64,000 nucleotides of DNA, from the NCBI RefSeq assembly GCF_900095305.1, contig NZ_FMDO01000007.1, positions 248,001 through 312,000 on the forward strand. The letters run 5' to 3'. Under the pieces are notes generated by a model, which was not told the origin of the DNA, searched no databases, and saw only the letters and a program-made list of their open reading frames with translations. The stretch is from Proteiniborus sp. DW1 (lineage in GTDB: Bacteria; Bacillota; Clostridia; Tissierellales; Proteiniboraceae). Of the stretch, positions 27,054 to 64,000 are shown piece by piece (position 1 is the first letter of the stretch; every line of letters starts with the position of its first letter). The position numbers were made by a program, and so were the translations under genes.

Positions 27054-27187
27054 ATATCTAATCCTAATGACATAAATATATTGACTTAGAAATAATTTGC
27101 CAGGTTTAGTCATAGGAACCTTTTAAAGCAGTTAGCATAGAATATTAATAGAAATGCTATAAAAACCCCTTAAAAAAATAGATATAT

Positions 27188-27249
27188 GATCAGGCCATGC
27201 ATAAAAGCATGTGCCGGGCCTTAATTGGCAGCAGGAATAAAAACCTGTG
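27188..27249 (+). promoter_or_regulatory. Candidate transition-metal (NiCo/czcD-type) riboswitch aptamer
   Basis: Between the upstream terminator and the CDF gene lies a structured stretch: CAGG (27191-27194), a CATGC/GCATG hairpin, GCCGGGC, then GGCAGCAGG (27227-27235). The CAGG, GCCGGGC and GGCAGCAGG blocks resemble, from memory, the conserved junction of the NiCo riboswitch. CAGG can pair with CCTG (27244-27247), which is also the left arm of the following terminator. Closing that helix on metal binding would release the terminator and turn on an efflux gene. The class assignment is tentative. Confidence 0.55.
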
Positions 27250-27280
27250 GGACTATAAATGTATAGTTTCACAGGTTTTT
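27239..27280 (+). terminator. Riboswitch expression-platform terminator
   Basis: AAAAACCTGTG (27239-27249) pairs with CACAGGTTTTT (27270-27280), with an inner ACTATA/TATAGT helix. The 3' arm ends in the T run. It lies 36 bases before the CDF start codon, so it must be bypassed for expression. Confidence 0.9.
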
Positions 27281-27316: not shown

Positions 27317-28189
27317 GTGAGTAGTGACTTTAAAAAAGTAAAGCAGATACTATTAATAATTCTATTTACTAATTTACTAGTTGCAGTACTAAAGATTATT
27401 ATGGGAAATATTATTAATAGCACTAGTATGACTGCAGACGGATTTCATTCATTAACAGATGGCTCTTCTAATATTATCGGATTAATAGGAATACATTTTG
27501 CTTCTAAACCTGTAGATGAAGAACATCCCTATGGGCACAAAAAATTTGAAATACTTGCAGGATTATTTATTTCAGTTATGTTATTTTTAATTGGAGCTAA
27601 AGTAGTTTTAGAGGCTATTAATAGACTATTTAATCCTGTTATGCTAAAAATAACCTTAGAAAGCCTTCTAGTCATTTTATTAACCTTATTCATAAATGTT
27701 ATTGTATGTTTTTTTGAATACAGAAGAGGTAAAAAGTTAAATAGTCAGATTTTGATTTCTGATTCTATGCATACTAGAAGTGATGTATATATATCACTTG
27801 GAGTTTTAATTTCTATTATATGTATTAAGTTAGGTTTGCCATCAGTAATTGATCCAATTGTATCATTTGTAGTAGCAGGGTTTATCTTTCATACTGCCTA
27901 TGAAATTTTCATATATAACAGTGGCATTTTAGTAGATAAGGCAGTAGTTGATACAGAAACCATAAGAAATATTGTATTGAGCTTTGAAGAGGTTAAGGAT
28001 ATTCACAAAATAAGAAGCAGAGGTATTGAAAACGACCTTCATATTGATATGCATATTATGATAGAACCCAATATAAGTGTAGAAGCTTCACATCAGCTAA
28101 TTCACAGCATAGAAGAAAAAATAAGACAGGATATTAACAGCAATATACAGCTCATTGCACATCTTGAGCCTTATAAGAATAATCATTGA
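27317..28189 (+). CDS. Cation diffusion facilitator family metal transporter
   Basis: A 290-residue membrane protein with six transmembrane segments, then a cytosolic domain of about 85 residues. Metal-site motifs of the CDF family are visible: TADGFHSLTDG in helix 2 and SDSMHTRSDVYIS in helix 5 (HxxxD pairs), plus the positively charged HPYGHKKFE loop. It exports divalent cations (Zn, Co, Ni, Fe or Mn) by proton exchange. The start is GTG at 27317 with GGGGGAAG upstream. A metal-responsive riboswitch and terminator just upstream make Ni/Co a reasonable guess for the substrate. Confidence 0.92.
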   Translation: MSSDFKKVKQILLIILFTNLLVAVLKIIMGNIINSTSMTADGFHSLTDGSSNIIGLIGIHFASKPVDEEHPYGHKKFEILAGLFISVMLFLIGAKVVLEAINRLFNPVMLKITLESLLVILLTLFINVIVCFFEYRRGKKLNSQILISDSMHTRSDVYISLGVLISIICIKLGLPSVIDPIVSFVVAGFIFHTAYEIFIYNSGILVDKAVVDTETIRNIVLSFEEVKDIHKIRSRGIENDLHIDMHIMIEPNISVEASHQLIHSIEEKIRQDINSNIQLIAHLEPYKNNH

Positions 28190-33914: not shown

Positions 33915-34002
33915 ATGACCTAACCCGATTATTTCGGATGCTTTTATATTCCTCCCCTTTGAAATAGTTTTGTATTTAACTTAACTAGGGGAGGTGATTT
34001 TT

Positions 34003-34899
34003 TTGACAAAAAATATAATGCTTCAAGGAACTGCTTCATCAGTTGGCAAAAGCATATTGACTGCAATATTGTGCAGGATTCTGAAGCAGGATGGATACAG
34101 TGTAGCCCCATTTAAATCTCAGAACATGTCTTCAAAGTCAATTTTAATAGAAGATAACAAAGAAATATCCATAGCTCAGGCTATTCAGGCAGAAGCTGCA
34201 ATGATAGAGCCTAACGAGAGCATGAATCCTATACTATTAAAGCCAATGAGTGATATTGGAAGTTTAGTAGTATTGAATGGATTGCCTTATAAAGTTATGA
34301 CTGCATCAGAATATCATAAAATGAAGCTAGAGCTTAAGTGGGCAATAAAAGAGGCTTACAATAAACTGGCTCAACGCTTTGACATAATTGTTATTGAAGG
34401 TGCTGGCAGCCCTGCTGAAATCAATTTAAGAGATAACGATATTGTAAACATGGGTTTAGCAGAGTTAGTGGATGCTCCAGTAATTCTCATTGGAGACATC
34501 GACAGAGGTGGTGTTTTTGCATCTATATATGGAACTCTTATGCTTATGCCAGAAAGAGAAAGAAATAGGGTAAAGGGCTTTATAATAAATAAGTTTAGAG
34601 GGGATGTAGAATTATTAAAGCCTGGAATTAAAATGATTGAAGAGCTAGTAGATAAGCCATGTTTTGGAGTAGTTCCTTATATGCAGGTAGATTTAGAAGA
34701 GGAAGACAGTCTAATTGTAAAAAATGATTATAAAGAGTGGCAGAATCCCACTATGTCTATGGATATGAAACAAGAAGAGCCTAGCTTGAATCTTCAACGA
34801 GAGTATAGAGAACTAAGAAATAGAGAGTTTGAAAGACTTGCACATATAGTTAGAAATAGCATTGATATAGATAAGATTAAAGAAATAATGAGGTTATAA
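34003..34899 (+). CDS. cobQ: Cobyric acid synthase lacking the glutaminase domain
   Basis: CobQ/CbiP amidates the b, d, e and g side chains of adenosylcobyrinic acid a,c-diamide. The synthetase domain is intact: P-loop [33 protein letters not shown] and [14 protein letters not shown]. Normal enzymes have about 490-510 residues with a C-terminal class I glutaminase (GATase_3). Here the protein has 298. After [16 protein letters not shown] the sequence passes through a short linker straight to the family's C-terminal tail ([17 protein letters not shown]). No glutaminase Cys or His motif is present. TTG at 34003 fits GGGGAGG spacing. It may use free ammonia or a separate glutaminase, or be inactive. 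Confidence 0.88.
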
Positions 34900-49866: not shown

Positions 49867-50627
49867 TACTGGTTTTGTCAGGAACATCTGATGGAAGAAA
49901 AATAATAGAATTGCTGGCAAGTACAGGTTACTCTGTAATAGTATCTACGGCAACAGAGTATGGAAAAATGCTAGCTGAAATTGATAAAAATATAACAGAG
50001 ATAATATCAGGTAGATTGGAAAAGCCTGATATGGAAAAGATAATAAGAGAAAAAGATATACAATATATAGTAGATGCTACCCATCCATATGCAGACAAGG
50101 TTTCAAAAAATGCTATTGCCGCAAGTAAATCTATGGGAATACAATATTTAAGATTTGAAAGAGAAGAGCATATATATGACGGAGCACACTATTTTCCGGA
50201 CTATAGCAGTGCAGTACTATATTTAAAGGAAACTCAAGGGAATGTTCTATTGACCATTGGTAGCAATAACCTACATATCTTCACATCTTCCCTTGATATA
50301 GATAGGCTATATACAAGAGTTCTTCCTACCTATGCTGTAGTGAAGAAATGCGAAGAGTTGGGATTACTTCCAAGGCAGATAATAGCAGTCCAAGGACCCT
50401 TTACAAAAGAGCTCAATAAAGCCATATACAAAAACTATAATATAAAGCATATGGTGACAAAAGATAGTGGAGACGCTGGAGGAACTAAAGAAAAGATTGA
50501 AGGAGCAATGGAAACAGGGGTAAATGTGATTCTGATACAGCGTCCTAACATAGACTATCCCAATATATGCAATAGTATAGAAGAAGTCATAGATAGCATA
50601 AAGAAAAATTATAAAAATTACAACTAA
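49863..50627 (+). CDS. cbiJ: Cobalt-precorrin-6A reductase
   Basis: It reduces cobalt-precorrin-6A with NAD(P)H. The 254-residue protein has the CbiJ/CobK N-terminal LVLSGTSDGRKIIELLASTG, VDATHPYADKVSKNA, YLRFERE, LTIGSNNLHIF, RVLPTYAVV and the C-terminal TKDSGDAGGTKEKIEGA. It is the last gene of the riboswitch 1 run. Riboswitch 2 starts 13 bases after the stop codon, with no terminator between. Confidence 0.95.
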   Translation: MILVLSGTSDGRKIIELLASTGYSVIVSTATEYGKMLAEIDKNITEIISGRLEKPDMEKIIREKDIQYIVDATHPYADKVSKNAIAASKSMGIQYLRFEREEHIYDGAHYFPDYSSAVLYLKETQGNVLLTIGSNNLHIFTSSLDIDRLYTRVLPTYAVVKKCEELGLLPRQIIAVQGPFTKELNKAIYKNYNIKHMVTKDSGDAGGTKEKIEGAMETGVNVILIQRPNIDYPNICNSIEEVIDSIKKNYKNYN

Positions 50628-50639
50628 ATAGCTAAACAT

Positions 50640-50830
50640 TACAGGTGCTTCTTTAGAAGGAAGTTAAAAGGGAAAGCGGTGAAAATCCGCTACAGCCCCC
50701 GCTACTGTAAGTGGGAACGAAATCATAATATGCCACTGGAGAAATTTCTCTGGGAAGGTTTGATAGTAGGGAGTACCACAAGTCAGGAGACCTGCCTGTA
50801 GATTTTATAAATAAGCCTTCGGTGGGAAGT
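50640..50830 (+). promoter_or_regulatory. Cobalamin riboswitch 2, inside the gene run
   Basis: Conserved ACAGGTGCTTC (50641), AAAAGGGAA, GCCCCCGCTACTGTAA (50695-50710) and B12 box AGTCAGGAGACCTGCC (50781-50796). No clear promoter was seen between cbiJ and the aptamer, so it probably acts on readthrough from the upstream operon and sets a second gate for cbiK and the chelatase/transport genes. A promoter inside cbiJ cannot be excluded. Confidence 0.95.
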
Positions 50831-50866
50831 GGTTATTTTAAGTATAGTTTATTATTTATACTATTG

Positions 50867-50896
50867 ACCATAGTTTGCAAAGGCTATGGTTTTTTG
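50867..50896 (+). terminator. Expression-platform terminator of riboswitch 2
   Basis: ACCATAG (50867-50873) pairs with CTATGGT (50884-50890), then six T. It precedes cbiK. Confidence 0.88.
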
Positions 50897-50954
50897 TTTG
50901 CTTAAAACTACAATCTCATTACAGAAGGGGAATATTAATCATGAGGAGGAGAAG

Positions 50955-51737
50955 ATGAAAAAAGGGATAATTGTAGCAAGCTTTGGGACTAGTTATGAAG
51001 AAACTAGAAAACTATGCATAGAAAGCGTAGAAAACAAAGTAAAAAGAGAGTTTTGTGAATACCAGGTAGAGAGGGCATTTACTTCTCAAATAGTGATCAA
51101 CAAGCTAAAAAAAGGAGATGGTATATTAGTAAACAATGTAACAGAGGCATTACAGAAAATGAATCAGGAAGGCATTGCTCAAGTGTTTGTACAGTCTCTT
51201 CACATAGTGCCTGGACATGAGTACAACAAGCTTTTAAATCAAGTGAATTTGTTTAAAGAAAAGAATGATGATATGACAATACACGTAGGAGCACCGCTAT
51301 TAAATGATGATACAGACTACAAAAAAGTAGTTGAGGCAATTGAGTTTAAGGCTCTAAATCAATACGAAGCTGTGGTTTTTATGGGACACGGAACTGACCA
51401 TGCCTCAGACAGCAGATATGATTTATTAGAGAAGTATTTTAGAAAAGAGTACTCAAATAATATATTTATTGGAACAGTAGAAGGAAGTGTTAAGTTAGAG
51501 GACATAATACCACAGCTTCTAGAGAAAAAAATAAGTAGTGTGAAGCTAATACCATTCATGCTTGTAGCAGGAGATCATGCATTAAATGATATGGCTGGTG
51601 ACGAAGAGGATTCATGGAAAAGCATGTTAATAAAAAATGGATTTCATGTAGAAGTAACTTTGAATGGATTAGGTGAAAATAAAAAAATTCAGGATATATT
51701 CTTATGCCATTTAAAGGATGCTATGAAAAATAGTTAA
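50955..51737 (+). CDS. cbiK: Sirohydrochlorin cobaltochelatase CbiK
   Basis: It inserts cobalt(II) into sirohydrochlorin, the first committed step of the anaerobic route. The 260-residue protein shows IIVASFGTSYEETRK, RAFTSQIVINKL, the metal-site His in QSLHIVPGHEYNKLL, FMGHGTDHASDSRYDLL and LIPFMLVAGDHALNDMAGDE. There is no signal peptide, so this is a cytosolic CbiK. ATG at 50955 follows GAGGAGGAG; an in-frame start at 50886 lies within the terminator region and is unlikely. It opens the riboswitch 2 operon, which also encodes a CobN-type chelatase. Confidence 0.95.
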   Translation: MKKGIIVASFGTSYEETRKLCIESVENKVKREFCEYQVERAFTSQIVINKLKKGDGILVNNVTEALQKMNQEGIAQVFVQSLHIVPGHEYNKLLNQVNLFKEKNDDMTIHVGAPLLNDDTDYKKVVEAIEFKALNQYEAVVFMGHGTDHASDSRYDLLEKYFRKEYSNNIFIGTVEGSVKLEDIIPQLLEKKISSVKLIPFMLVAGDHALNDMAGDEEDSWKSMLIKNGFHVEVTLNGLGENKKIQDIFLCHLKDAMKNS

Positions 51738-51762
51738 CTAAAAATAGTGGGAGGAATGAGCT

Positions 51763-52815
51763 ATGAAAAAATTAAGAGTATTATCACTTTTATTAGTTAT
51801 TGTAATGATTAATGCAATATTTACAGGCTGTAGCCAAAACAATAGAAAACAGGATGAGATGGTAAACAGTGCAAACGAAGTTAGCAATGGAGAAGTAAAA
51901 GCTAATGAGGACACAGAAACAAGTCAACCTGTATCTGAATATGGAATAACTATTAATGAGGACAATGTAGTATTTACAGATGCTAGAGGGGAAGAGGTAA
52001 CTATAAAAAAGAATCCTCAAAGAGTAGTTTGCTTATATAATTCCTATCTAGATATTTGGGATAGCTGTGGAGGAAAGGTAATAGGCAGAGTAGAGGAAGC
52101 AGAAGAAAAGCCTGTTGAAAACGCTATGTCAGCTGAAGTAGTTGGAACATCAGGATCTCCAAGTCTTGAAAAGGTTTTAGCATTAGAGCCGGATTTAGTT
52201 ATCTTATCTAACGGATTCAAGGTTCAGGCAGATATGGTTCCAGTACTAGAACAAAATAATATTCAGGTTATATCCTTAGCAAATGACTATCTAGAGGACT
52301 ATTATAAGTCAGTAAGACTCTTCACTGCAATAACAGAGAGAGAAGACTTATATGAAAAGCATATTAGCGAAGTTAAAAAGGGTGTAGATGCAATAGTAGA
52401 AAAAGCACCTAAGGATAAAAATTACAAGGTTTTAATCATATTTGCTTCAGCTAAAAGTATTACAGTTAGAAACTCAGAATCAATGGTAGGAGAAATGCTT
52501 AAAGATTTAAATACTATAAATATATCTGATACAGAAACAGATCCAGCAAGTGCTAAAGTTTTCAGCATGGAAAAAATAATTCAGGAGGACCCAGACTTTA
52601 TATTTGTACAAACTATGGGAAGTGACAAAGAAAAAATAATGGAAAGATTAAAGCAGGACGTTGAAGATAATCCAGCATGGTCATCTCTTACAGCTGTAAA
52701 GGAAGGAAGATACATAGTTCTGCCAAAGGATCTGTATTTATACAAACCGAATGCAAGATATGTAGAGGCATATGAAGGACTAGCAAAAATACTTTACCCA
52801 GAGGTATTTAATTAA
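51763..52815 (+). CDS. BtuF/FecB-type substrate-binding lipoprotein
   Basis: A 350-residue lipoprotein with signal peptide and lipobox FTGC (lipidated Cys23), a polar linker rich in Asn, Glu and Ser (about 24-60), and a Peripla_BP_2 domain (NPQRVVCLYNSYLDIWDSCGGKVIG, SLEKVLALEPDLVILS, NPAWSSLTAVKEGRYIVLP). It delivers its ligand to the FecCD-type permease encoded downstream. Candidate ligands are corrinoids, haem-like tetrapyrroles or metal chelates. A stable hairpin separates it from the permease, consistent with higher expression of the binding protein. Confidence 0.92.
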   Translation: MKKLRVLSLLLVIVMINAIFTGCSQNNRKQDEMVNSANEVSNGEVKANEDTETSQPVSEYGITINEDNVVFTDARGEEVTIKKNPQRVVCLYNSYLDIWDSCGGKVIGRVEEAEEKPVENAMSAEVVGTSGSPSLEKVLALEPDLVILSNGFKVQADMVPVLEQNNIQVISLANDYLEDYYKSVRLFTAITEREDLYEKHISEVKKGVDAIVEKAPKDKNYKVLIIFASAKSITVRNSESMVGEMLKDLNTINISDTETDPASAKVFSMEKIIQEDPDFIFVQTMGSDKEKIMERLKQDVEDNPAWSSLTAVKEGRYIVLPKDLYLYKPNARYVEAYEGLAKILYPEVFN

Positions 52816-52910
52816 TAATAGGGGCGTATAGTTGCTATTGAAGAAAGCCAATTACTTAATCTAATGAGAAATTAATTCATTGAAATCGCAAATGTAGACA
52901 ATTAAAGAAT

Positions 52911-52952
52911 AGTTTAACGGTAGCTTGATTACTATTCAGCTATCGTTAAACT
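52911..52952 (+). promoter_or_regulatory. Long intercistronic hairpin, candidate mRNA processing/stability element
   Basis: AGTTTAACGGTAGCT (52911-52925) pairs with AGCTATCGTTAAACT (52938-52952), 15 bp with one G-T pair and a 12-base loop. No T run follows, so it is not a typical terminator. It lies in the 196-base gap between the binding lipoprotein and permease genes; the rest of the gap shows no other feature. Confidence 0.6.
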
Positions 52953-53011
52953 TATACTACAAGGCTATACAGCCTATCTAAAATGCTAATAATCTAAGGG
53001 GAATAGAAACT

Positions 53012-54016
53012 ATGAACAGTAGTAATACAAAGAAAGAAACGATTAAAAAGAGCTTCATTTTATTTATTTTTATGTGTATTGCAGTAGTCAGCTTTTTTAT
53101 AAGTATAGGAAATGGAGCTGTAAATATATCACCTAAGGAGATAATAAATGCAGTTTTATTTGACAAATCTACAGTAAACTATCAGATAATATGGAATGTT
53201 AGATTACCTAGAACTATAGTAGCTGCATTTGTTGGCACATGTCTAGCCTTATCTGGAGCAATACTACAGGGAGTTATGAGAAATCCTTTAGCAGGACCTA
53301 ATATAATTGGTGTTTCATCTGGCGCAGGGCTTATGACATTAATCATTCTAATACTCTTGCCTGACTTGTATTATTTAGCACCTGTGGGAGCCTTTGTTGG
53401 TGCACTGCTGGCTACTCTATTCATATATTTCCTAGCATGGAAGGAAGGAGTGCAGCCAACTCGTTTGATACTAGCAGGTGTGGCAGTATCCTCATTATTA
53501 GGAGCTGGAACAAATGCAATAATGACTTTTTTTCCGAATAAAGTAGCTGGAGTCATTGGATTTATGGTAGGAGGCCTTTCTGCAACTAATTGGAAGCATG
53601 TAAACACCATATTTCCATACGCAACAGTGGGAATAATATTGCTTTTACTCATACCAAACAAGCTGAATATACTAATGCTAGGAGATGAAGTAGCAACAGG
53701 GCTAGGAGTAAATGTAGAAAAGACTAGATTCATCTTCATAATAATATCATCACTGTTAGCCGGTAGTGCAGTAAGTGTTGTAGGGCTTTTAGGCTTTGTA
53801 GGACTTATAGTCCCACACATGACTAGGCTGTTTATAGGCTCTGATTATAGATACCTACTGCCAGCGTCTATATTTACAGGTGCTAGCATAGTCATGCTAT
53901 GTGATACTATAGCAAGGCTTTTGTTTGCTCCTACGGAAATACCTGTAGGTATTATAATGTCAGCATTAGGAGCTCCGTTTTTCTTATACCTACTTAGAAG
54001 AAGAGGAGAATATTGA
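53012..54016 (+). CDS. FecCD/BtuC-type ABC permease (second system)
   Basis: A 334-residue permease with about ten membrane segments: NVRLPRTIVAAFVGTCLALSG, RNPLAGPNIIGVSSGAGLM, the loop GLLGFVGLIVPHMTRL and EIPVGIIMSALGAPFFLYLL. It is a paralogue of the permease at 38217-39260. The start ATG follows AAGGGG. The ATPase gene starts immediately after its stop. Substrate is the same open question as for the lipoprotein. Confidence 0.93.
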   Translation: MNSSNTKKETIKKSFILFIFMCIAVVSFFISIGNGAVNISPKEIINAVLFDKSTVNYQIIWNVRLPRTIVAAFVGTCLALSGAILQGVMRNPLAGPNIIGVSSGAGLMTLIILILLPDLYYLAPVGAFVGALLATLFIYFLAWKEGVQPTRLILAGVAVSSLLGAGTNAIMTFFPNKVAGVIGFMVGGLSATNWKHVNTIFPYATVGIILLLLIPNKLNILMLGDEVATGLGVNVEKTRFIFIIISSLLAGSAVSVVGLLGFVGLIVPHMTRLFIGSDYRYLLPASIFTGASIVMLCDTIARLLFAPTEIPVGIIMSALGAPFFLYLLRRRGEY

Positions 54017-54017
54017 T

Positions 54018-54800
54018 ATGAAAATGAAGATTGAAAACATAAGTGTAAATTATGGAGAGAAGGAAGCAGTTAAAAATCTTAGTTTTAAAATAGATTCTGG
54101 TCAGATAGTCACCATCATAGGACCTAACGGCTCAGGAAAGTCTACTTTGCTTAAAGCTATGAGCAGATGTTTAAAGCCATCAACAGGCAATATCTATATA
54201 GAAGGAATTAATATAAACGAGATAAATACTAAAGTAATTGCACAAAAATTGGCTATATTGCCACAGGTAAAAAATGTATCATCAGATATTTCTGTAGAAG
54301 AGCTAGTATCCTACGGAAGATATCCTCATTTAAAGTTTGGTAAAAGGCTAGGAAAGGAGGATAAGGAAATAATAGACTGGGCACTAGAAAAGACGGGACT
54401 TCGCTCCTTAAGAAAGAGATTTGTTGCTACACTTTCAGGAGGAGAAAGACAGAGAGCATGGATAGCTATGTCATTGGCGCAAAAGCCAAAAATACTTTTA
54501 CTTGACGAGCCTACAACATTTCTTGATATATCCTATCAGGTGGAGGTTTTAGAACTGGTAAAGGAATTAAATGAAACATTAAGTTTAACTGTAGTTATGG
54601 TTTTGCATGATTTGAACCAAGCAGCAAGATATTCAGATATGATTCTAGTTATGAAAGATGGCGAAATGTGCAAATTAGGAAGACCTAGTGAAATAATTAA
54701 GGAATGCTTATTAAAGGATGTCTTTAGGATAGAAGCAGATATATACGATGACAAGGTAAATAACTGTCCATACTTTATTCCCAAAAAAACTATTGCCTAA
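54018..54800 (+). CDS. FecE/BtuD-type ABC ATPase (second system)
   Basis: A 260-residue ATPase: Walker A GPNGSGKSTLLKAM, Q-loop AILPQVKNVSSD, VSYGRYPHLKFG, signature LSGGERQRAWIAMSLA, Walker B ILLLDEPTTFLDI and switch His VLHDLNQAARYSD. It completes the second importer with the lipoprotein and permease. The start follows AGAGGAG at the end of the permease gene. Confidence 0.94.
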   Translation: MKMKIENISVNYGEKEAVKNLSFKIDSGQIVTIIGPNGSGKSTLLKAMSRCLKPSTGNIYIEGININEINTKVIAQKLAILPQVKNVSSDISVEELVSYGRYPHLKFGKRLGKEDKEIIDWALEKTGLRSLRKRFVATLSGGERQRAWIAMSLAQKPKILLLDEPTTFLDISYQVEVLELVKELNETLSLTVVMVLHDLNQAARYSDMILVMKDGEMCKLGRPSEIIKECLLKDVFRIEADIYDDKVNNCPYFIPKKTIA

Positions 54801-54822
54801 ATAAATTTTTGGAAGTGATGAT

Positions 54823-55659
54823 GTGATACAAATAAAAAATGTTACAAAAAAATTTGATGATTTTATTGCCGTAAATAATATAAGCCTAAACATTGATAGT
54901 GGAGACTTTATAGGACTTCTAGGTCCAAATGGGGCTGGAAAAACTACAATTATAAAAATGCTTACAGGACTATTAAAGCCAACTGAAGGAGAGATTTACA
55001 TTAATGGGCAGAAAATGACTAGAAATAATAAAGACGCAAAAAAAATACTGGGAATAGTGCCTCAATATACTAATCTTGACAAAGAACTTACAGTATATGA
55101 GAATTTAGTATTTGCAGCTAAACTCTTTAGTATCAGAAGTTATAAACAAAAGATATCTGAACTATTAGAGTTTATAGAACTAGAGAGCTATAAGGATAGA
55201 AAAGCAATGAACCTATCTGGAGGTATGGCTAGACGATTAATGATTGCAAAGGCATTGATAAATGATCCAGAGATTATAATTTTGGACGAGCCTACTGTAG
55301 GCATAGATTTGAATGGCAGAAGAAAAATATGGGACATACTAAAGGCAATGAAGACTATGGGCAAAACTGTATTACTGACTACACATTATATTGAGGAAGC
55401 AGATTATCTTTGTAATAAGGTGTGTTTAATTGACAGAGGACAAATAATAGATAATAATACTCCTGATAATCTTAAGAAGGAACTGGGAGCTTATACTATG
55501 GAATACTTTGATAATGAGATGAAAACCATATACAAGCATTTTCAGAGTAAGGAAGAAGCAATAAATTACTCCAGCAAAATAATGAGCTTAAGCTATACCC
55601 TCAGAGAAACTACTCTAGAAGATGTATTTTATAACTTTACAAATAGGAAGGTAATATAA
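54823..55659 (+). CDS. ABC-2 exporter ATPase (NodI/CcmA-like)
   Basis: A 278-residue ATPase with Walker A GPNGAGKTTIIKML, Q-loop GIVPQYTNLDKELTVYEN, signature NLSGGMARRLMIAKALI, Walker B IIILDEPTVGIDLNGR and switch His TTHYIEEADYLCN. The short C-terminal extension fits drug- or polysaccharide-export ATPases rather than the importer family. GTG at 54823 with GGAAGTGAT upstream is the start. It pairs with the permease that begins two bases after its stop. Its place inside a cobalamin-riboswitch operon suggests export of a tetrapyrrole or metal-related compound, but this is inference. Confidence 0.9.
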   Translation: MIQIKNVTKKFDDFIAVNNISLNIDSGDFIGLLGPNGAGKTTIIKMLTGLLKPTEGEIYINGQKMTRNNKDAKKILGIVPQYTNLDKELTVYENLVFAAKLFSIRSYKQKISELLEFIELESYKDRKAMNLSGGMARRLMIAKALINDPEIIILDEPTVGIDLNGRRKIWDILKAMKTMGKTVLLTTHYIEEADYLCNKVCLIDRGQIIDNNTPDNLKKELGAYTMEYFDNEMKTIYKHFQSKEEAINYSSKIMSLSYTLRETTLEDVFYNFTNRKVI

Positions 55660-55660
55660 A

Positions 55661-56395
55661 ATGGAAGTACTTACTGTGATGTGGAGAGAGTTTATATTTT
55701 TCAAAAGAAGAATTGGAAAGATTACTGCTAGTGCTGTTATGAACCCTATTTTATATCTTATAGCCTTTGGCTGGGGACTTGGAAGGGATGTAGTAATAGA
55801 AGGCTCAACCTATATGCATTTCATAATACCAGGCATAATAGCTCTTTCTACTATGAATACCAGCTTTAATGCAGTAGCTACTAGAATAAATATATCTAAG
55901 TTGCATGAAAAAAGCTTTGAATATTACTTAACTGCCCCTGTCAGAATGCCATTGATGGCATTAGGGCATATATTATCAGGAGCACTAAGGGGTATGTATG
56001 CTGCCGCCCTCATAGTGTTTGTATCCTATATATTTGGAATTAAACTAGATGTGGATGTCTATTTTATAATAGTATGCTTCTTAAATAGCTTTCTATTTTC
56101 TGCCCTTGGCTATGGAGCAGCCTTGTCTATAGATAGTCATTATGATATGAACAGATTTACTACCTATATAATGATGCCAATGTCTTTTTTATGTGGAACT
56201 TTTTTTTCCTTGAACAACCTGCCCTTAGCCATAAAGAAAATAATAAGCATTTTGCCTCTTTCTCAAGCTTCTATCTCTCTTAGAGGAATTGTCTTAAGAG
56301 GTGAGTTTCATTACAAAGCTATTTTAGTGCTCCTTATATACTCTATTGGTCTTTATATTATCGGAGTTTACATGAGTTTTAGAGAAATGAAGTAG
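55661..56395 (+). CDS. ABC-2 exporter permease (NodJ-like)
   Basis: A 244-residue membrane protein with six segments, containing the ABC-2 elements [48 protein letters not shown] and [18 protein letters not shown]. It forms a half-transporter with the preceding ATPase. The next gene, a ChlI-type AAA+ ATPase, starts eight bases later, so exporter and chelatase genes form one operon. Confidence 0.9.
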
Positions 56396-56403
56396 AAAAG
56401 GAC

Positions 56404-57444
56404 GTGATTAAGCTGAATACAGAAAAGGTAAAAAATTATCCATTTACTGCCATAGTTGGTCAAGAGGAAATGAAAAAAGCATTGCTCCTTAACATAATTA
56501 ATCCTGCCATAGGAGGAGTTCTCATCAGAGGAGAAAAGGGAACAGGGAAATCTACAGCTGTTAGATCCATCGTAGACCTTTTACCCAGCAGAATAGAGGT
56601 AGAGGATTGTACGTATAGCTGTGATCCATTAGAGTTAAATAAAATGTGTGAAGAATGCAGACGCAAAGTAAGCATTGGTCAAAAGCTTGAAACAAGAGAA
56701 GGAAAAATGAAAGTAATAGAACTCCCTATAAATGCTACAGAGGATAGGGTGGCAGGTACACTAGATATACAGACAGCTATCAAAAAAGGCGAAAAGAAGT
56801 TTGAACCTGGAATACTTGCATTCGCCAACAGAAATATTCTCTATATAGATGAAATAAATCTTTTAGAGGATCATATAGTAGATATATTATTGGACGCTGC
56901 TGCCATGGGAGTAAACAACATAGAAAGAGAGGGCATATCCTACTCACATCCATCAAACTTTATTTTAGTAGGAACTATGAATCCGGAGGAGGGGGACATT
57001 AGACCTCAGCTTATAGATAGGTTTGGTTTAGTTGTAGATGTAATTGGGGAAAAGAGCAGTAAAAATAGAATAGAAGTAATAAATAGACGTATTAGCTACG
57101 AGAAGGCCCCACAGGCTTTTATAGATAGTTATGAGAGAGAAAACAAAGAGCTTACAGAAAAGATAATTATGGCAAAGAAAATATTACCTCAAGTAACATA
57201 TGGAGATGATATATTGGGGGCTACAGTTGAGATATGTATAAAGCTAGGACTAGATGGACATAGAGGCGATATAACTGCTATTAAAACTGCTACTGCAATA
57301 GCCGCCTTTAATGGTAGAGTTATAGTGACTAAAGAGGACTTAGCTGAAGCCCTGAAGCTTGTAATACCACATAGAATGAGAAAAAGACCCTTTGAAGAAG
57401 GAAGCTTAGATGTTGCAGTCATTCATGAGTTGCTAGGAAAGTAA
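56404..57444 (+). CDS. Magnesium-chelatase-type AAA+ ATPase, ChlI/BchI-like subunit
   Basis: A 346-residue AAA+ ATPase: Walker [14 protein letters not shown] near residue 39, an insertion with four cysteines (CTYSC...CEEC, about 70-90) that may bind zinc, [19 protein letters not shown], Walker [14 protein letters not shown] and sensor [19 protein letters not shown]. The I subunit drives ATP-dependent metal insertion with D and H/CobN partners, both encoded next. GTG at 56404 is the assumed start, although its AAGG is close. Bacteriochlorophyll genes are absent, so chlorophyll synthesis is not the role. Confidence 0.93.
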
Positions 57445-57458
57445 TAGGAGGCTTGAAA

Positions 57459-59324
57459 TTGAAGAGAACAATATATCCTTTTGCTGCAATAGTAGGTCAA
57501 GAAAAGTTGAAGAAGGCTATACTGCTGAATTTAGTAAATCCTAGAGTAGGCGGAGTGCTCATAAGTGGTGAAAAGGGAACGGGGAAAAGTACCATTGTAA
57601 GGTCTATACCATCAATATTTAACTCGGTTGAGATTGTAGACCTTCCTTTAAATATTACGGAAGACAGGCTAATAGGCACTGTAGATTTAGAAAAGGCAAT
57701 ATTATTTGGCAATAAGGAGCTCGAAGAAGGAATCCTTAAAAGAGCTGATGGAAACATACTCTATATAGATGAAGTGAATTTATTAGGGGACAGCATTATA
57801 AATACTGTATTACAGGTTGTAGCTTCAGGCTTTAACAATATTGAAAGAGAAGGAATATCTCATAAGCATAGCTCAAGGTTTGTACTTATAGGAACTATGA
57901 ATCCAGAGGAAGGAAGCCTAAAATCTATATTTTTAGATAAGTTTGGGTTATTTGTAACTGTAAAAGGAGAAATGGACTTAGAAAGCAGAAAAGAAATAAT
58001 TAGAAGAAGATTATTATATGAACAAGATAAGGTGAAATTTAATGAGCAATGGTTTGAAGAATGTATAGGAATAAGAGATAAAATAGAAAATGGAAGAAGG
58101 CTTCTAAATAAAGTCAAAGTGCCTAATGAACTGCTGAATATTATTGTCAGTACTTTAAATGATTGTGATTGTGAGGGAAATAGAACTGAAATAATAGTTA
58201 CAGAGACCGTAAAGGCAATAGCAGCACTAGATAATAGAATAGAGGCTAATGTAGAGGATATAAAAGAAGCTTTCGGATATGTTCTTCCTCATAGAATAAG
58301 AAAAAATCCAAAGGAAGACAATAGAGAGGATAATGACAAGAGTAAAGAAGAGAACGATAATTGTCAGAATGAAAAAGAAGATAAAGAAAATGATGATAGA
58401 GAAAAGGATTTAGATGACAGCGATGACCTAAATGACTTTGATAATTTTAATTCTAGCTCATTATCTTTGAACATAGAACTAATAGAGGATATTGGACACA
58501 CCTTCAAGACTAAAAGTATTAATTTTAGAAGCAAGGATAGAAAAGTAAGAAAAGGCTCTGGAAAAAGAAGCCTTACTAAGACTGATTCAAAGCAGGGTAG
58601 ATACATAAGATATATGTATAAAAATGATGAAATAAAAGACATATCTCTAGAGGGCACTCTTAGAGCTGCTGCACCATATCAAAAATTTAGACAAAAGAAT
58701 GAAGTAGCCATAGCCATAGAAAAAGGTGATTTAAGAGAAAAAATACGGGAAAAAAGAACGGGGACAACTATATTTTTCTTAGTAGATGCTAGTGGTTCTA
58801 TTTCTGCAAAGAAAAGGATGAAGGCAGTAAAAGGAGCCATAACGTCTCTATTGACAGATGCTTACGAAAAAAGAGATAAGGTATCCTTGATAGCATTTAG
58901 AAAAGAGTCGGCAGAGATTTTGCTACAGCCTACTAGAAGTGTAGAACTGGCAAGGAAACATTTAAAGGAACTACCGTCTGGAGGCAAGACACCTCTTTCA
59001 GCAGGAATGAATACAGCATATAATCAAATAAATAGTCAGATGATAAAAGATAAAGATATGATACCATTTCTTGTCATCATATCAGATGGAAGAGCAAATG
59101 TATCCTTAACAGGAGAGGAACCACTATGGGAAGCATTAAAAATCGCAGAAAAGATAAGAGAAAAGGAAATAAAGGTATTAGTAATAGATACTGAAAGTGG
59201 TTTTCTTAAATTTGGAGTTTTAAGAGAGCTTTCAAATGTATTAGGAGCAGAGTATCTAAATATAGAAGACCTAAGCGACAATATGATTTATGATTCTGTA
59301 AAGAATTTAGTAAATATGGATTAG
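57459..59324 (+). CDS. Magnesium-chelatase-type AAA+/VWA protein, ChlD/BchD-like subunit
   Basis: A 621-residue protein. Residues 1-270 are a second AAA+ domain with an intact Walker [14 protein letters not shown] and Walker B ILYIDEVNLLGDS. A very acidic, low-complexity linker rich in Asp, Glu, Lys and Asn covers about residues 285-340. Residues about 430-620 are a VWA domain with MIDAS DASGSIS and ISDGRAN. In the chelatase, D bridges the I ring and the H/CobN subunit. TTG at 57459 (GGAGG, 7-base spacing) is preferred over TTG at 57453. The intact ATPase site differs from many BchD proteins, where it is degraded. Confidence 0.93.
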   Translation: MKRTIYPFAAIVGQEKLKKAILLNLVNPRVGGVLISGEKGTGKSTIVRSIPSIFNSVEIVDLPLNITEDRLIGTVDLEKAILFGNKELEEGILKRADGNILYIDEVNLLGDSIINTVLQVVASGFNNIEREGISHKHSSRFVLIGTMNPEEGSLKSIFLDKFGLFVTVKGEMDLESRKEIIRRRLLYEQDKVKFNEQWFEECIGIRDKIENGRRLLNKVKVPNELLNIIVSTLNDCDCEGNRTEIIVTETVKAIAALDNRIEANVEDIKEAFGYVLPHRIRKNPKEDNREDNDKSKEENDNCQNEKEDKENDDREKDLDDSDDLNDFDNFNSSSLSLNIELIEDIGHTFKTKSINFRSKDRKVRKGSGKRSLTKTDSKQGRYIRYMYKNDEIKDISLEGTLRAAAPYQKFRQKNEVAIAIEKGDLREKIREKRTGTTIFFLVDASGSISAKKRMKAVKGAITSLLTDAYEKRDKVSLIAFRKESAEILLQPTRSVELARKHLKELPSGGKTPLSAGMNTAYNQINSQMIKDKDMIPFLVIISDGRANVSLTGEEPLWEALKIAEKIREKEIKVLVIDTESGFLKFGVLRELSNVLGAEYLNIEDLSDNMIYDSVKNLVNMD

Positions 59325-59354
59325 CTTGTAATAGCTAATGTGGAGGGGATAAAT

Positions 59355-62300
59355 ATGCTTAGATTAGTTGTAGTAAGTGTGTCAAACCCTGTTATAGCAG
59401 ATATTATAGATTCCAAGAGAAATTTAAAGGAAAGGTATGGGGATATTTTAGAATTAAAGCTTTTTTACGTTGGTAGAGGGACTGAAGGAGAGACTTTAAA
59501 AAGAATTGAGAATGCTATATTAGACAGTGATTTTGTCATACTTGATTTAATGGGAAGCGAAGAGGACGTAGGAAAGACTTGCTTTAATGCATGTAATTCT
59601 AGTAGTTGCAATACAGTTATAATAGGAAACATAGGAAGAAATAATTTAAGCTCTATTTCAAGACTAGGGGAATTTTCCGTAAGTGAAGTTACAAATAGAG
59701 CCAATAAGTCTGATAAAAAGTTTCCTACAGATGAATTGCTGAATATGGCGAAAGAAATAGAGCTTATAGATAAAGATATGCTGTCTAGGAAGCATAAAGA
59801 CATTATAAACTATGTGAACATAGGAAGGTACTGGAAAAATGCAGGCGTTGAAGAGATAACTAATATGCTTTACCTAATATTAAGAGACTATGGAGGATAT
59901 GAAAAGCTTCCAGAGCCTAAGGAGCCTAGCCAGTATAATCAAATATCAATATGCACACCTATAACCATGGAGAGATTTTCAACTATAGACGAGTATATTG
60001 CTTCTGGATATATAGAGTACAATAAGCCAACAGTTGTCATATTTTACTATGGCAACAGTGCACCTAATAGGATACAAAATGCCATAGCCAAAATATGCAG
60101 CAAAATATCTGAATTTGCAAATGTAATACCTATAGCATTCATGTCATATGGGAGAAGACATTTAAAGAAAATTGAGGAGGTTCTATTTTCTCCTAAGTCA
60201 CCAAAGACAGATTTTATAATAAATTTTATGTCATTTAGATTAGGCTCAGGTCCTATGGGAGAGGATGCGCAACAGGCTATGGAGCTTTTGACTAAGATAA
60301 ATGTTCCTTGCCTTCATCCCTTTTTCATGCCTAAAAGATATATTGAAGAATGGAAGGAATCAGAAAGAGGCATTAGTACTTCTGAGTTTTTAACTACTGT
60401 AATGCTTCCAGAGATAGATGGTTCAATAGAAACCTATCCTGTAGGTGCAATTACCAACCATAGATGGGATGAGGAATTTGATATTGAATTAATAGAAGTA
60501 GATATAATAGAGGATAGGGTTGAAAAGCTAATTAATAGGGTAAAAAAATGGATTGAACTAAGATATAAGAAAAATCAGGACAAAAAAGTGGCCATAATAT
60601 GCTACAATTATCCTCCATCTGAAGGCAATATATTTGGAGGAGCATTTTTAAACACGTTTGAATCTGTTGAGAATATACTTAATACACTTAAAGAAGAAGG
60701 CTATAGTGTAGATACGTTGACTAAAGAAGAACTAATGGACTACTTTACTGCTGGAAAAATAGTAAACTCAGGAAGATGGGGAGAAGATCAGATAAGTGCT
60801 CATATGATTAAGTATAGCTCAAAAGCTTATATAGAAGATATGAAGGATACCCTATCCTATAAGGAAACTTGTATTCAATGGGGAGAGGCTCCTGGAAACA
60901 TAATGACAGAGAGAGATGATTTTTTAATACCAGGTAAGATATTTCAAAATGTCTTCATAGGTCTGCAGCCTACTAGGGGAATACATGAAAATCCAGAAAA
61001 AGTATATCATGATAAGGCTCTAACACCACACCATCAATATCAGGCATACTATAAATGGTTAAAGGAAGAATTTAAAGCTGATATAATGATTCATGTTGGA
61101 ACCCATGGAACTCTTGAATTTTTAAAAGGTAAGGAATGTGGTATGTCCTCTGACTGCTATCCAGATATGCTCGTATATGATATTCCTCATGCATATATAT
61201 ATAACTGCACCAATCCAGCAGAATCTTCAATAGCAAAGAGAAGGGCTCATGCATTACTTATAAGCTATCAGCCGCCTCCATTTGTTCAAGGAGAACTGTA
61301 TGGAGACCTGCTGCTGATAGAGTCTTTAATAGATGAGTATCATAGTGCGGAGCAGACTGATCCTACTAAATGTGAGCAAATATTTAGTAAACTCAAAGAG
61401 AAGGCAAGAGATATAAATATTGAGCTAGAAGATTTGGATACCCTAGAAAATGAGATCTATAGAATGAAAAGAACCCTAGTGCCCTATGGGCTTCATACCT
61501 TTGGCAAAGGATACTCAGATATGGAAGCAGTAGAGTATATGAAGTTTATATTAAGATATGACAGAGCAGAAGTTAAATCTCTAAAAAGAATAGTATGTGA
61601 ACATGAAGGCTTAGACTATGATAAGCTTTTACAGGCTAATAATATTGATATACTGAAAAGACTGGATGAAAGAGCTTCTGAAATAGTAGATGATTTTTTA
61701 GAAGGCAAAGATTTAGACAGTATATATATCGACACCTTAGAGTACGGGAAAAAATGCATGGATAATGCAAAGCAGTGTAACGAAATGAAGGGCCTGCTTA
61801 AGGTATTAAATGGTGAATATTTGCCAGCAAAGCTTTGCGGAGATGTATTCAGAAATCCGGAGGTACTTCCTACAGGGTATAATCTATACCAATTTAATCC
61901 CCATTTAGTCCCTACTGAGGTTGCCTATGAAAGAGGATGGAGAATAGCAGAAAATACTATAGAAAAGTATATGAAGGAGAATGACACTTATCCTAACAAT
62001 GTAGCTATTGTTCTTTGGGGAATAGAAACATCAAGAACCCAAGGAGAGACATTAGGACAGATTTTAAGCTATTTAGGAGTGCGAATATTGAAAAACAAAA
62101 GCCAGTTTGGTTTTCAATATGAAATTATTCCTATTGAGGAGTTAGGCAGACCTAGAATAGATATAACTATTGATATGTCTGGCTTTTTTAGAGATATGTT
62201 CCCAAATATGGTTGATGAGCTAAATAATATTTTTAGAGAGGTTTATTTTTTAGAGGAGTCTGATGAATTAAACTACTTCAAGGCCAACAGTAAAAAGCTA

Positions 62301-63074
62301 TATAAAAAGCTTATTGAACAAGGCTATTCAGAGGAGGAGGCAGAGGAATTATCATATGCTAGGCTATTTGGACCTAGAGAAGGAGAATATGGTAATGGAG
62401 TGACTAAGCTAATAGAAACAAAGAACTGGAACATGGAAGAACAAATAGGAAATCTTTTCATACAAAACACAGGAAATGTATATACAAAAAATTATAGGGG
62501 GAAAAAAGTAAAAGGTTTATTTGAGGATATGCTATCTAAAGTAGATATAGTATCTCAAATAAGAAGCTACCATGGATATGAGGTTACAGATTTAGATGAT
62601 TTTTATGGGCATTTTGGTGGACTAGCTAAGGCGGTTGAAGTAACTAAGGGAGAAAAGGCAAAGATATATATCAATGATACTACTGGAGAGAAAATAGAAA
62701 CTGATAGTGTAGAAAAGTCTATAGAACGAGGTATAAGGACCAGATTATTAAATCCTAAATGGATAGAAGGAATGCTTCAAAACAAATATCATGGTGTTCA
62801 AAAGATAGAAAAAATATTTGAGAATCTAATAGGTCTTTCATCTACAACAAATGAAGTAAAAAGCTGGATATTTGATAGCTTGTATTCTACTTATATATCA
62901 GATGAGGATATGCGTGAAAGAATGAAAGAAAACAACAGATGTGCATATTTAGATATATTAGAAAGAATGCTAGAGGCTAAAGAAAGGGGATACTGGGCTG
63001 CTACAAAGGAACAACTGGAGGAGCTTAGAAAGGTATATTTTCAAATAGAGGGAAGTATAGAGGAGAAGATTTAG
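59355..63074 (+). CDS. CobN/BchH-type chelatase large subunit
   Basis: A 1239-residue porphyrin- or corrin-binding chelatase subunit. Signatures include NYPPSEGNIFGGAFLNTFESV, GLQPTRGIHENPEKVYHD, HVGTHGTLEFLKGKECGMS, NCTNPAESSIAKRRAHALL, LWGIETSRTQGETLGQILSYLG and RPRIDITIDMSGFFRDMFPN. CobN inserts cobalt into hydrogenobyrinic acid a,c-diamide in the aerobic pathway; relatives act on protoporphyrin (BchH) or have been linked to haem use (HmuS). Here an anaerobic cbi pathway with CbiK is present, so the substrate is uncertain. ATG at 59355 follows GGAGGGG; an in-frame GTG at 59340 is less likely. Confidence 0.92.
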   Translation: MLRLVVVSVSNPVIADIIDSKRNLKERYGDILELKLFYVGRGTEGETLKRIENAILDSDFVILDLMGSEEDVGKTCFNACNSSSCNTVIIGNIGRNNLSSISRLGEFSVSEVTNRANKSDKKFPTDELLNMAKEIELIDKDMLSRKHKDIINYVNIGRYWKNAGVEEITNMLYLILRDYGGYEKLPEPKEPSQYNQISICTPITMERFSTIDEYIASGYIEYNKPTVVIFYYGNSAPNRIQNAIAKICSKISEFANVIPIAFMSYGRRHLKKIEEVLFSPKSPKTDFIINFMSFRLGSGPMGEDAQQAMELLTKINVPCLHPFFMPKRYIEEWKESERGISTSEFLTTVMLPEIDGSIETYPVGAITNHRWDEEFDIELIEVDIIEDRVEKLINRVKKWIELRYKKNQDKKVAIICYNYPPSEGNIFGGAFLNTFESVENILNTLKEEGYSVDTLTKEELMDYFTAGKIVNSGRWGEDQISAHMIKYSSKAYIEDMKDTLSYKETCIQWGEAPGNIMTERDDFLIPGKIFQNVFIGLQPTRGIHENPEKVYHDKALTPHHQYQAYYKWLKEEFKADIMIHVGTHGTLEFLKGKECGMSSDCYPDMLVYDIPHAYIYNCTNPAESSIAKRRAHALLISYQPPPFVQGELYGDLLLIESLIDEYHSAEQTDPTKCEQIFSKLKEKARDINIELEDLDTLENEIYRMKRTLVPYGLHTFGKGYSDMEAVEYMKFILRYDRAEVKSLKRIVCEHEGLDYDKLLQANNIDILKRLDERASEIVDDFLEGKDLDSIYIDTLEYGKKCMDNAKQCNEMKGLLKVLNGEYLPAKLCGDVFRNPEVLPTGYNLYQFNPHLVPTEVAYERGWRIAENTIEKYMKENDTYPNNVAIVLWGIETSRTQGETLGQILSYLGVRILKNKSQFGFQYEIIPIEELGRPRIDITIDMSGFFRDMFPNMVDELNNIFREVYFLEESDELNYFKANSKKLYKKLIEQGYSEEEAEELSYARLFGPREGEYGNGVTKLIETKNWNMEEQIGNLFIQNTGNVYTKNYRGKKVKGLFEDMLSKVDIVSQIRSYHGYEVTDLDDFYGHFGGLAKAVEVTKGEKAKIYINDTTGEKIETDSVEKSIERGIRTRLLNPKWIEGMLQNKYHGVQKIEKIFENLIGLSSTTNEVKSWIFDSLYSTYISDEDMRERMKENNRCAYLDILERMLEAKERGYWAATKEQLEELRKVYFQIEGSIEEKI

Positions 63075-63123
63075 TGTACAGGAAATAATGAAGTATTTGT
63101 AATAATGGATTAAGATTACAATA

Positions 63124-63157
63124 AATAAATCCCTTTGCCAAGATAAAGGGATTTATT
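63124..63157 (+). terminator. Terminator after the chelatase operon
   Basis: AATAAATCCCTTT (63124-63136) pairs with AAAGGGATTTATT (63145-63157) across an 8-base loop. Confidence 0.8.
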
Positions 63158-63250: not shown

Positions 63251-63309
63251 CTAATTGAAATTGGAGTGAAAAATTGAATATTGTGGCTATTGGTGTAATT
63301 TTATTCATA

Positions 63310-63495
63310 AAATTACTTAAAAGGGAAGCTCGGTGAAATTCCGACACGGTCCCGCCACTGTAATGGATAGAACTTTACAGATACCACTGTACAATATGTA
63401 TGGGAAGGTGTAAGGTTTGTCATTCCTAAGTCAGGAGACCTGCCAATGGTAACAGCGCTGTTTATTACTCACGAGGATGAGGAGGTGTTATTTGA
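63310..63495 (+). promoter_or_regulatory. Cobalamin riboswitch 3
   Basis: AAAAGGGAAGCTCGGTGAAATTCCG (in pieces), GTCCCGCCACTGTAA (63349-63363) and B12 box AGTCAGGAGACCTGCC (63429-63444). It diverges from riboswitches 1 and 2 in the outer helices. It has its own promoter and is followed by two terminators and a broken transporter gene. Confidence 0.93.
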
Positions 63496-63540
63496 TAGTA
63501 GAACTTATATTCTATTTGTTCTGCTATGCACTAATAATGC

Positions 63541-63568
63541 CCTTTCTATTTATAAGAAAGGTTTTTTT
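63541..63568 (+). terminator. First terminator after riboswitch 3
   Basis: CCTTTCT (63541-63547) pairs with AGAAAGG (63555-63561), then seven T. Likely the riboswitch expression platform. Confidence 0.85.
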
Positions 63569-63593
63569 ATTGTGCAATAACTCATGTGTAATA

Positions 63594-63620
63594 AACTCAG
63601 CAAATTTCGCTGAGTTATTT
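63594..63620 (+). terminator. Second terminator after riboswitch 3
   Basis: AACTCAGC (63594-63601) pairs with GCTGAGTT (63609-63616), then ATTTTATTT. It lies only 10 bases before the ribosome binding site of the next gene. Confidence 0.7.
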
Positions 63621-63638
63621 TATTTGGAGGGATGACAT

Positions 63639-63998
63639 TTGAATTTTACGAAACTTGTAACAAATCCCATTTTACTTTTATTTCTCAATATTTAGGGAAG
63701 TTTTACAGGTTCTCTAGGCTCTACAGGAGGAGTACTTATTGTAGCATTAGGGTTGGGTAGTATTAAAAAGCTTGGACATCTAAGCCTCTGTATGAACAAA
63801 AACCAATTATCTACAGTAAGGGATATTTGCCTAAACATGTTTCTTGCTATAGTAAGGCTCAACTATGGCTATAGTGCCATAAATTTAATTAAGACACTAG
63901 GAGCTCAACTATTATTAGTGGGAGCGACTACATCAATTTTCAGTATACTAATAGGGTATATTGTTGGAAAGAGGATAATAAAGCTAAATACTATATAG
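63639..63998 (+). pseudogene. AspT/YidE-family transporter gene, broken; window ends here
   Basis: TTG at 63639 with GGAGGG eight bases upstream starts NFTKLVTNPILLLFLNI, then an in-frame TAG (63693-63695). The same frame continues as GSFTGSLGSTGGVLIVALGLG, then STVRDICLNMFLAIVRLNYG and LLLVGATTSIFSILIGYIVG, ending KLNTI before TAG at 63996-63998. This matches one repeat of the YidE/YbjL/AspT duplication domain (LGSTGGVL, LxxFLAxVGLxxG, LLLxGAxxTLxPLxxGYxxG). The glycine expected in the VGLNYG position is Arg. Complete family members have over 500 residues, so the rest should lie to the right, intact or not. The cobalamin riboswitch upstream suggests the ancestral gene was a B12-related transporter. 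Confidence 0.7.
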
Positions 63999-64000
63999 CT

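Follow-up and report, generated by a model that had tools for sequence, protein, structure and literature searches.

A cobalamin riboswitch-led operon of Proteiniborus sp. DW1 with a chelatase large subunit outside the CobN clade: a possible importer-coupled tetrapyrrole de-chelatase

A stretch of 64,000 nucleotides from Proteiniborus sp. DW1 (contig NZ_FMDO01000007.1, positions 248,001 to 312,000; hereafter the window, in whose own coordinates positions are given) was analyzed in this study, with a focus on an operon at 50626–63157. It joins a cobalamin riboswitch, cbiK, a FecBCD-type ATP-binding cassette (ABC) importer, an ABC-2 exporter, ChlI- and ChlD-like AAA+ proteins, and a 1244-aa large chelatase subunit of the CobN/ChlH superfamily (59340–63074, plus strand). 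This large subunit falls in a clade separate from classical CobN, and its orthologues lie behind cobalamin riboswitches in Clostridia and, at many loci, behind predicted Zur or Fur boxes in Bacilli. Since orthologues appear to respond to a lack of cobalamin, zinc, or iron and are tied to an importer, release of metal from imported metallotetrapyrroles is the simplest reading. We propose, at what we judge to be even chances, that an importer-coupled, ATP-driven chelatase takes the metal (cobalt, zinc, or iron, depending on the lineage) out of imported metallotetrapyrroles and, in Proteiniborus, feeds cobalt to CbiK. More tentatively, and with somewhat less than even confidence, the module may represent a new class of ATP-driven tetrapyrrole de-chelatases, consisting of an importer, ChlI–ChlD, and a fourth CobN/ChlH clade and rewired between cobalamin, zinc, and iron limitation. 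Bacteria would then draw cobalt, zinc, and iron from metallotetrapyrroles, which might also be shuttle metallophores returned via the ABC-2 exporter.

Phylogeny and Active-Site Features of the Large Subunit

The large subunit matches PF02514 over its full length (1075 bits; residues 163–1226, profile positions 2–1090). It scores below the cut-off of the NCBI CobN model TIGR02257 (624.8 vs. 822.05; CobN of S. meliloti reaches 1804) and barely above that of the BchH model TIGR02025 (862.8 vs. 829; a true BchH reaches 1892), and its best PDB match is ChlH, followed by CobN and HmuS. In a FastTree phylogeny of 132 rows, it belongs to a clade of 87 rows (support 98) that is distinct from CobN, from BchH, and from the Hmu-type proteins, the latter represented by L088 and L091 as proxies. 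This clade comprises members from Firmicutes, Chloroflexi, methanogens, Archaeoglobi, Asgard archaea, and others. A 30-row IQ-TREE phylogeny recovers it as sister to BchH, not within BchH (95/94), and the approximately unbiased test rejects its Firmicutes members and CobN as one group (p 6.6e-58). The comparison with CobN, BchH, and HmuS clades that a preliminary description of the window had proposed thus sets the protein in a clade of its own, without firm placement in CobN. The name CobN used there holds for the superfamily (PF02514) and fails for the subfamily, and the puzzle of two opposed cobalt insertases in one operon, which rested on that name, dissolves. Members of the same clade also occur in methanogens, ANME-like archaea, and Asgard archaea (L113, L114, L116, L120, L122–L127, L132, and L142), some as two paralogues and with substrate-binding proteins (SBPs).

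The active-site motifs are of the BchH type (GTHGTLEF and NP(A/S)E..IAKRR), whereas CobN has GKHG..EW and PGEGTQAKRR. The catalytic residues H589, E593, and E628 are conserved, as mapped through alignment and not from a structure of the large subunit. H589 and E628 align with His-538 and Glu-577 of HmuS, a pair discussed in PMC12583661, and E593 and E628 with ChlH positions varied in solved mutants; across the head and neck domains that carry the HmuS haem ligands Met-79 and His-254, the alignment is weak. No 19-aa window of the large subunit exceeds a hydropathy of 1.6 and no signal peptide is visible in it; given this lack of a hydrophobic segment, a cytoplasmic location is predicted for the complex.

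Regulation of the Module in Clostridia and Bacilli

Clostridial modules of the clade are preceded by cobalamin riboswitches. In Bacilli, the module reads SBP–permease–ATPase–ChlI–ChlD–CobN; none of 17 Bacilli loci has a cobalamin riboswitch, and CbiD is missing from 10 of the 12 Bacilli genomes with the module. Zur boxes, defined as at least 12 of 14 matches to TCGTAATNATTACGA in the upstream 300 bp, were identified at 18 of 25 Bacilli loci (expected 0.011 per locus, or ∼0.3 in all; p 2e-30, a value that overstates independence because some of these loci are close relatives with near-identical promoters). Fur boxes precede three of the 25 (p 7e-4). Among B12-type loci, the corresponding counts are 0 of 16 for Zur and 1 of 16 for Fur.

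The Zur sites are found across many Paenibacillaceae lineages and in Gracilibacillus. A Fur-family regulator gene with a perfect Zur box in front of it lies directly upstream of the module at locus L205, and a gene for a COG0523 GTPase, a common Zur target (PMC2770081, PMC6103462), adjoins the module at L104 and L155. On a 43-row IQ-TREE phylogeny of the large-subunit protein, the Bacilli form one clade (100/100) with two subgroups, one Fur and one Zur, and two changes suffice for the B12, Fur, and Zur states. The 397 Bacillaceae genomes surveyed hold three module members, all of them already among the loci counted, so that support for Fur stays at three loci. In the open-access literature (subscription literature was not covered), we found no report of a ChlID–importer module of this clade under Zur or Fur, nor of the separate clade itself.

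Cobalamin Biosynthesis in the Genome

The genome encodes one PF02514 protein; CbiD and full CbiK are each encoded twice. The second CbiD/CbiK pair is located on contig 28 (locus L179, 5300–19901) in a near-complete, riboswitch-led cbi operon encoding CbiK, CbiC, CbiD, CbiE, CbiT, CbiF, CbiG, CbiH, and CbiJ together with its own SBP, permease, and ATPase. This second operon indicates that the organism makes corrinoids via early cobalt insertion, as judged from gene content, and that the CbiK of the window operon is not the sole copy. The CbiP genes of both regions appear shortened (33994–34899 in the window, 301 aa; 6786–7343 in L179, 185 aa); the window copy retains the nucleotide-binding domain at its N-terminus and a C-terminal tail resembling that of CbiP, and Pfam gives no glutaminase domain.

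CobF and CobG are markers of the aerobic late-insertion route. A model search, whose positive control was weak (one control genome above the cut-off for CobG and none for CobF), found neither above the cut-off in any of 59 genomes carrying CobN-like proteins, the Proteiniborus genome included; these two aerobic markers, which would have spoken for a classical CobN, were thus not found. Classical late cobalt insertion, in which a CobNST-type enzyme would serve an aerobic-type B12 pathway, is in keeping with the PF02514 homology and with the ChlI/ChlD partners that serve CobN in some species (PMC9227772). It is nevertheless unsupported because the large subunit is not a classical CobN, missing the model cut-off and being rejected from the CobN clade, and because CobF and CobG stay below their cut-offs in the 59 genomes. 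The presence of cbiD/cbiG and CbiK also argues against it, and we rejected this explanation as highly improbable.

Proposed Mechanism and Its Weighing

The FecBCD-type importer would bring a metal-bearing tetrapyrrole into the cell, where the cytoplasmic CobN/ChlH-like subunit would bind it and the ChlI–ChlD AAA+ motor would power a change that frees the central metal, equivalent to Mg-chelatase in reverse. In the clostridial lineage, under cobalamin shortage, the freed cobalt and/or the ring might feed the anaerobic pathway, with the product of cbiK, the first gene of the operon, as the entry enzyme that would receive the released cobalt. The ABC-2 exporter could expel the demetallated ring or send it back out as a carrier. 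For Bacilli, the role of the orthologous module would be zinc (Zur) or iron (Fur) supply. The preliminary description had suspected a function other than late cobalt insertion, possibly metal removal or exchange on an imported tetrapyrrole; this fits the separate clade, the lack of CobF/CobG, and the predicted Zur- and Fur-controlled orthologues, demetallation as such being putative. Relatives offer a precedent, namely iron removal from haem by HmuS (PMC12583661) and membership of the CobN-like PA1923 in the Zur regulon of P. aeruginosa (PMC4542158).

Several points weigh against demetallation. Corrins give up their cobalt only with great chemical difficulty. The relatives bearing Zur or Fur boxes are ∼40–43% identical to the window protein, so that the substrate here could differ; the boxes are consensus-based predictions, and support for Fur comes from the three loci named above. 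HmuS, a proven de-chelatase, runs without a ChlI/ChlD-type motor (PMC12583661), and the large subunits driven by ChlI/ChlD or CobS/CobT that have been characterized so far all insert metal (PMC7689651). PF02514 proteins occur in 17 of 199 genomes of the order (34 of 299 in the phylum), and those of the order track the anaerobic B12 pathway, CbiD being present in 15 of 17 carriers versus 79 of 182 non-carriers (p 5e-4); in Clostridia, the proteins could therefore serve B12 biosynthesis alone.

The precedent of metal insertion, the cobalamin riboswitch control, and the co-occurrence with CbiD within the order would also suit an insertion enzyme. Here the importer would take up metal-free or early tetrapyrroles or corrinoids (e.g., hydrogenobyrinates), to which CobN–ChlID would add cobalt late, as a salvage route parallel to that of CbiK. 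We consider this unlikely, as the Bacilli orthologues are under predicted Zur/Fur control and mostly lack CbiD, and the large subunit is outside the CobN clade with motifs of the BchH and not the CobN type.

Conservation of the Module Across Relatives

The recurrent partners of the window clade are the FecBCD-type importer and ChlI/ChlD, whose coupling spans Clostridia, Bacilli, and Chloroflexi; the presence of cbiK and of the ABC-2 exporter varies from locus to locus. This context survey had also been envisaged in the preliminary description. The exporter, to which the removal of a product had been attributed, is missing from the Bacilli loci and several clostridial loci, and was thus rejected as a core part; it is accessory, and its cargo is putative. 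Metal proofreading, in which the complex would strip zinc, nickel, or iron misinserted by CbiK into intermediates and the exporter would expel dead-end rings, agrees with the presence of CbiK and exporter in the same operon. It is improbable given that no partner is as constant as the dedicated importer, which is kept even where CbiK and the exporter are missing. Mirror-tree correlations among the module genes are moderate (Spearman 0.28–0.78), and importer swaps may therefore have occurred.

The cbiK gene lies beside the module in several loci, among which L077, L078, L079, and L068 have no other early cbi genes adjacent. This arrangement would be expected of ring salvage, in which the ring and not the metal is wanted and a foreign or wrongly metallated corrinoid or tetrapyrrole would be stripped and then re-metallated by CbiK. 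A similar B12-controlled Dehalobacter operon with CbiZ, induced by corrinoid starvation (PMC4285132), points the same way. However, ring salvage leaves the Zur and Fur versions unexplained, many loci are without cbiK, and CbiZ is absent from the window operon; we regard it as rather doubtful, a shade below insertion in probability.

At other clostridial B12-type loci (L050, L052, L058, L059, L061, L065, and L072), the PF02514 proteins branch with the CobN side of the tree, and their partners are CbiZ, a radical SAM protein, a carbon-nitrogen hydrolase of the nitrilase family, and often an exporter of the same type; this set possibly constitutes a second corrinoid-processing system. A conserved lipoprotein of ∼180 aa with no Pfam match follows directly after ChlD in several B12-type modules (L068 17074, L080 17721, and L081 17851). 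Locus L092 (MT837301.1), labeled “Bacteriophage sp.” and most likely a bacterial contig, contains a permease–ATPase–CobN–ChlI–ChlD module.

Comparison With Known Systems

HmuS removes iron from haem, and the survey of the superfamily in EMBO J left many clusters unassigned (PMC12583661). BtuS/HmuS has been put forward as a third CobN type tied to metalloporphyrin salvage, according to work cited in PMC6460266. HmuS/BtuS of the hmu operon of Bacteroidota (PMC12583661, PMC6460266) shares with the window protein the CobN/ChlH superfamily, coupling to uptake, and the active-site His and Glu (H589 and E628 in the window). Different from the window system, HmuS is membrane-anchored and NADH-linked, has TonB/ExbB/DUF2149 partners without ChlID, and belongs to a separate clade. 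Membership in HmuS, to which the preliminary description had likened the complex, was rejected because clade, location (no membrane anchor in the window protein), and partners (FecBCD and ChlI/ChlD) all differ. An Hmu-type CobN-like gene on a Runella slithyformis plasmid (L091) lies with a TonB receptor, ExbB, and DUF2149 genes within a HypCDEF cluster that also holds a urease-accessory-type gene, a setting that hints at a nickel version.

Mg-chelatase (ChlIDH/BchIDH) resembles the window complex in its three-subunit make-up with ChlI and ChlD and in its GTHG..EF and NP(S/A)E..IAKRR motifs, BchH being the nearest branch on the 30-row tree and ChlH the best structural match. It differs by its separate clade, by the TIGR02025 score (1892 for true BchH vs. 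863 for the window protein), and by the importer and riboswitch context of the latter. Cobaltochelatase CobNST shares the PF02514 superfamily and, in some species, the pairing of CobN with ChlI/ChlD (PMC9227772), but is set apart by the rejected clade, its own motifs, the missed model cut-off, and the lack of CobF/CobG.

The preliminary description put the operon forward as a candidate for an undescribed system. A B12-regulated operon of similar gene content is, however, already known in Dehalobacter restrictus (operon-2) and has a counterpart in Acetobacterium woodii (PMC4285132), with a cobalamin riboswitch, a FepBCD/BtuCD-type importer, CobN, and Mg-chelatase subunits. Operon-2 is strongly induced by corrinoid starvation and, unlike the window operon, contains two cbiZ genes, its role being read as corrinoid salvage; the comparison is one of gene content, its CobN not being on our tree. 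The Zur/Fur wiring and the separate clade appear to be new.

At present, proteins of the clade risk being annotated as Mg-chelatase H or CobN and then used for calling B12 or chlorophyll pathways. If the proposed demetallation is true, they would instead be nutrient-metal scavengers, metallotetrapyrroles would be a zinc and cobalt currency among microbes, and AAA+-driven chelatases would operate in reverse in nature. A testable role would also be offered for CobN-like genes whose Zur regulation is so far unexplained, among them PA1923 of Pseudomonas aeruginosa, which lies in an HmuS-type setting with TonB/ExbD/DUF2149, belongs to the Zur regulon, and is 122-fold up under zinc starvation without a known role (PMC4542158, PMC9431628).

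Organization of the Operon

All genes of the operon are encoded on the plus strand, as are the elements that bound it, and the order given in the preliminary description was borne out by RF00174 and by Pfam and TIGR matches. The unit opens with a cobalamin riboswitch aptamer, its putative controller (50626–50813; RF00174, 141 bits, E 1.5e-35), followed by a terminator-like expression platform in the interval before cbiK (50866–50891; 11-pair stem and T-run). The cbiK gene (50955–51737; PF06180, 284 bits) encodes a class II, ATP-independent sirohydrochlorin cobaltochelatase with MGHGTDH and AGDHALNDMAGDEEDSW in its translation; its likely start is the ATG at 50955, preceded by a ribosome-binding site, as the listed open reading frame start at 50886 lies too far upstream.

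The importer consists of a lipoprotein SBP of the Peripla_BP_2 family (51763–52815; PF01497), a FecCD/BtuC-family permease (53012–54016; PF01032, 328 bits), and a FecE/BtuD-type ATPase (54018–54800; PF00005; FecE 298 bits). The earlier assignment to a BtuFCD/FecBCD-type importer stands as to family; the SBP itself is IsdE/siderophore-like rather than BtuF-like (94.7 vs. 24.6 bits). Its closest solved structures are siderophore SBPs, and as a clue to the ligand it yielded only generic siderophore-type matches. The exporter comprises a DrrA/NodI-like ATPase (54823–55659; TIGR01188, 271.7 bits), also present in related loci, and a permease (55661–56395; PF01061, 80 bits).

The ChlI-like AAA+ motor (56404–57444; TIGR02442 489 bits, TIGR02030 415 bits) and the ChlD-like AAA+ plus VWA subunit (57453–59324; TIGR02442 664 bits) both have intact Walker A/B motifs on inspection, the latter also an intact metal ion-dependent adhesion site (DASGS). 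The large-subunit gene follows, and a terminator-like stem of 14 pairs (63124–63157) closes the unit. Intergenic gaps are 1–26 bp, except for 196 bp between SBP and permease. Two congeners (L083 and L085) have the identical gene order with a riboswitch upstream in each, their CobN-like proteins being 79% and 87% identical, respectively, to that of the window.

A third cobalamin riboswitch with its own terminator-like stem is located at 63274, downstream of the closing stem, and the ∼700 bp after it (63274–64000) contain no intact gene, the reading frames resembling a decayed transporter. Elsewhere in the window, a NiCo riboswitch (27175–27257) lies upstream of a cation-diffusion-facilitator-like gene (27317–28189).

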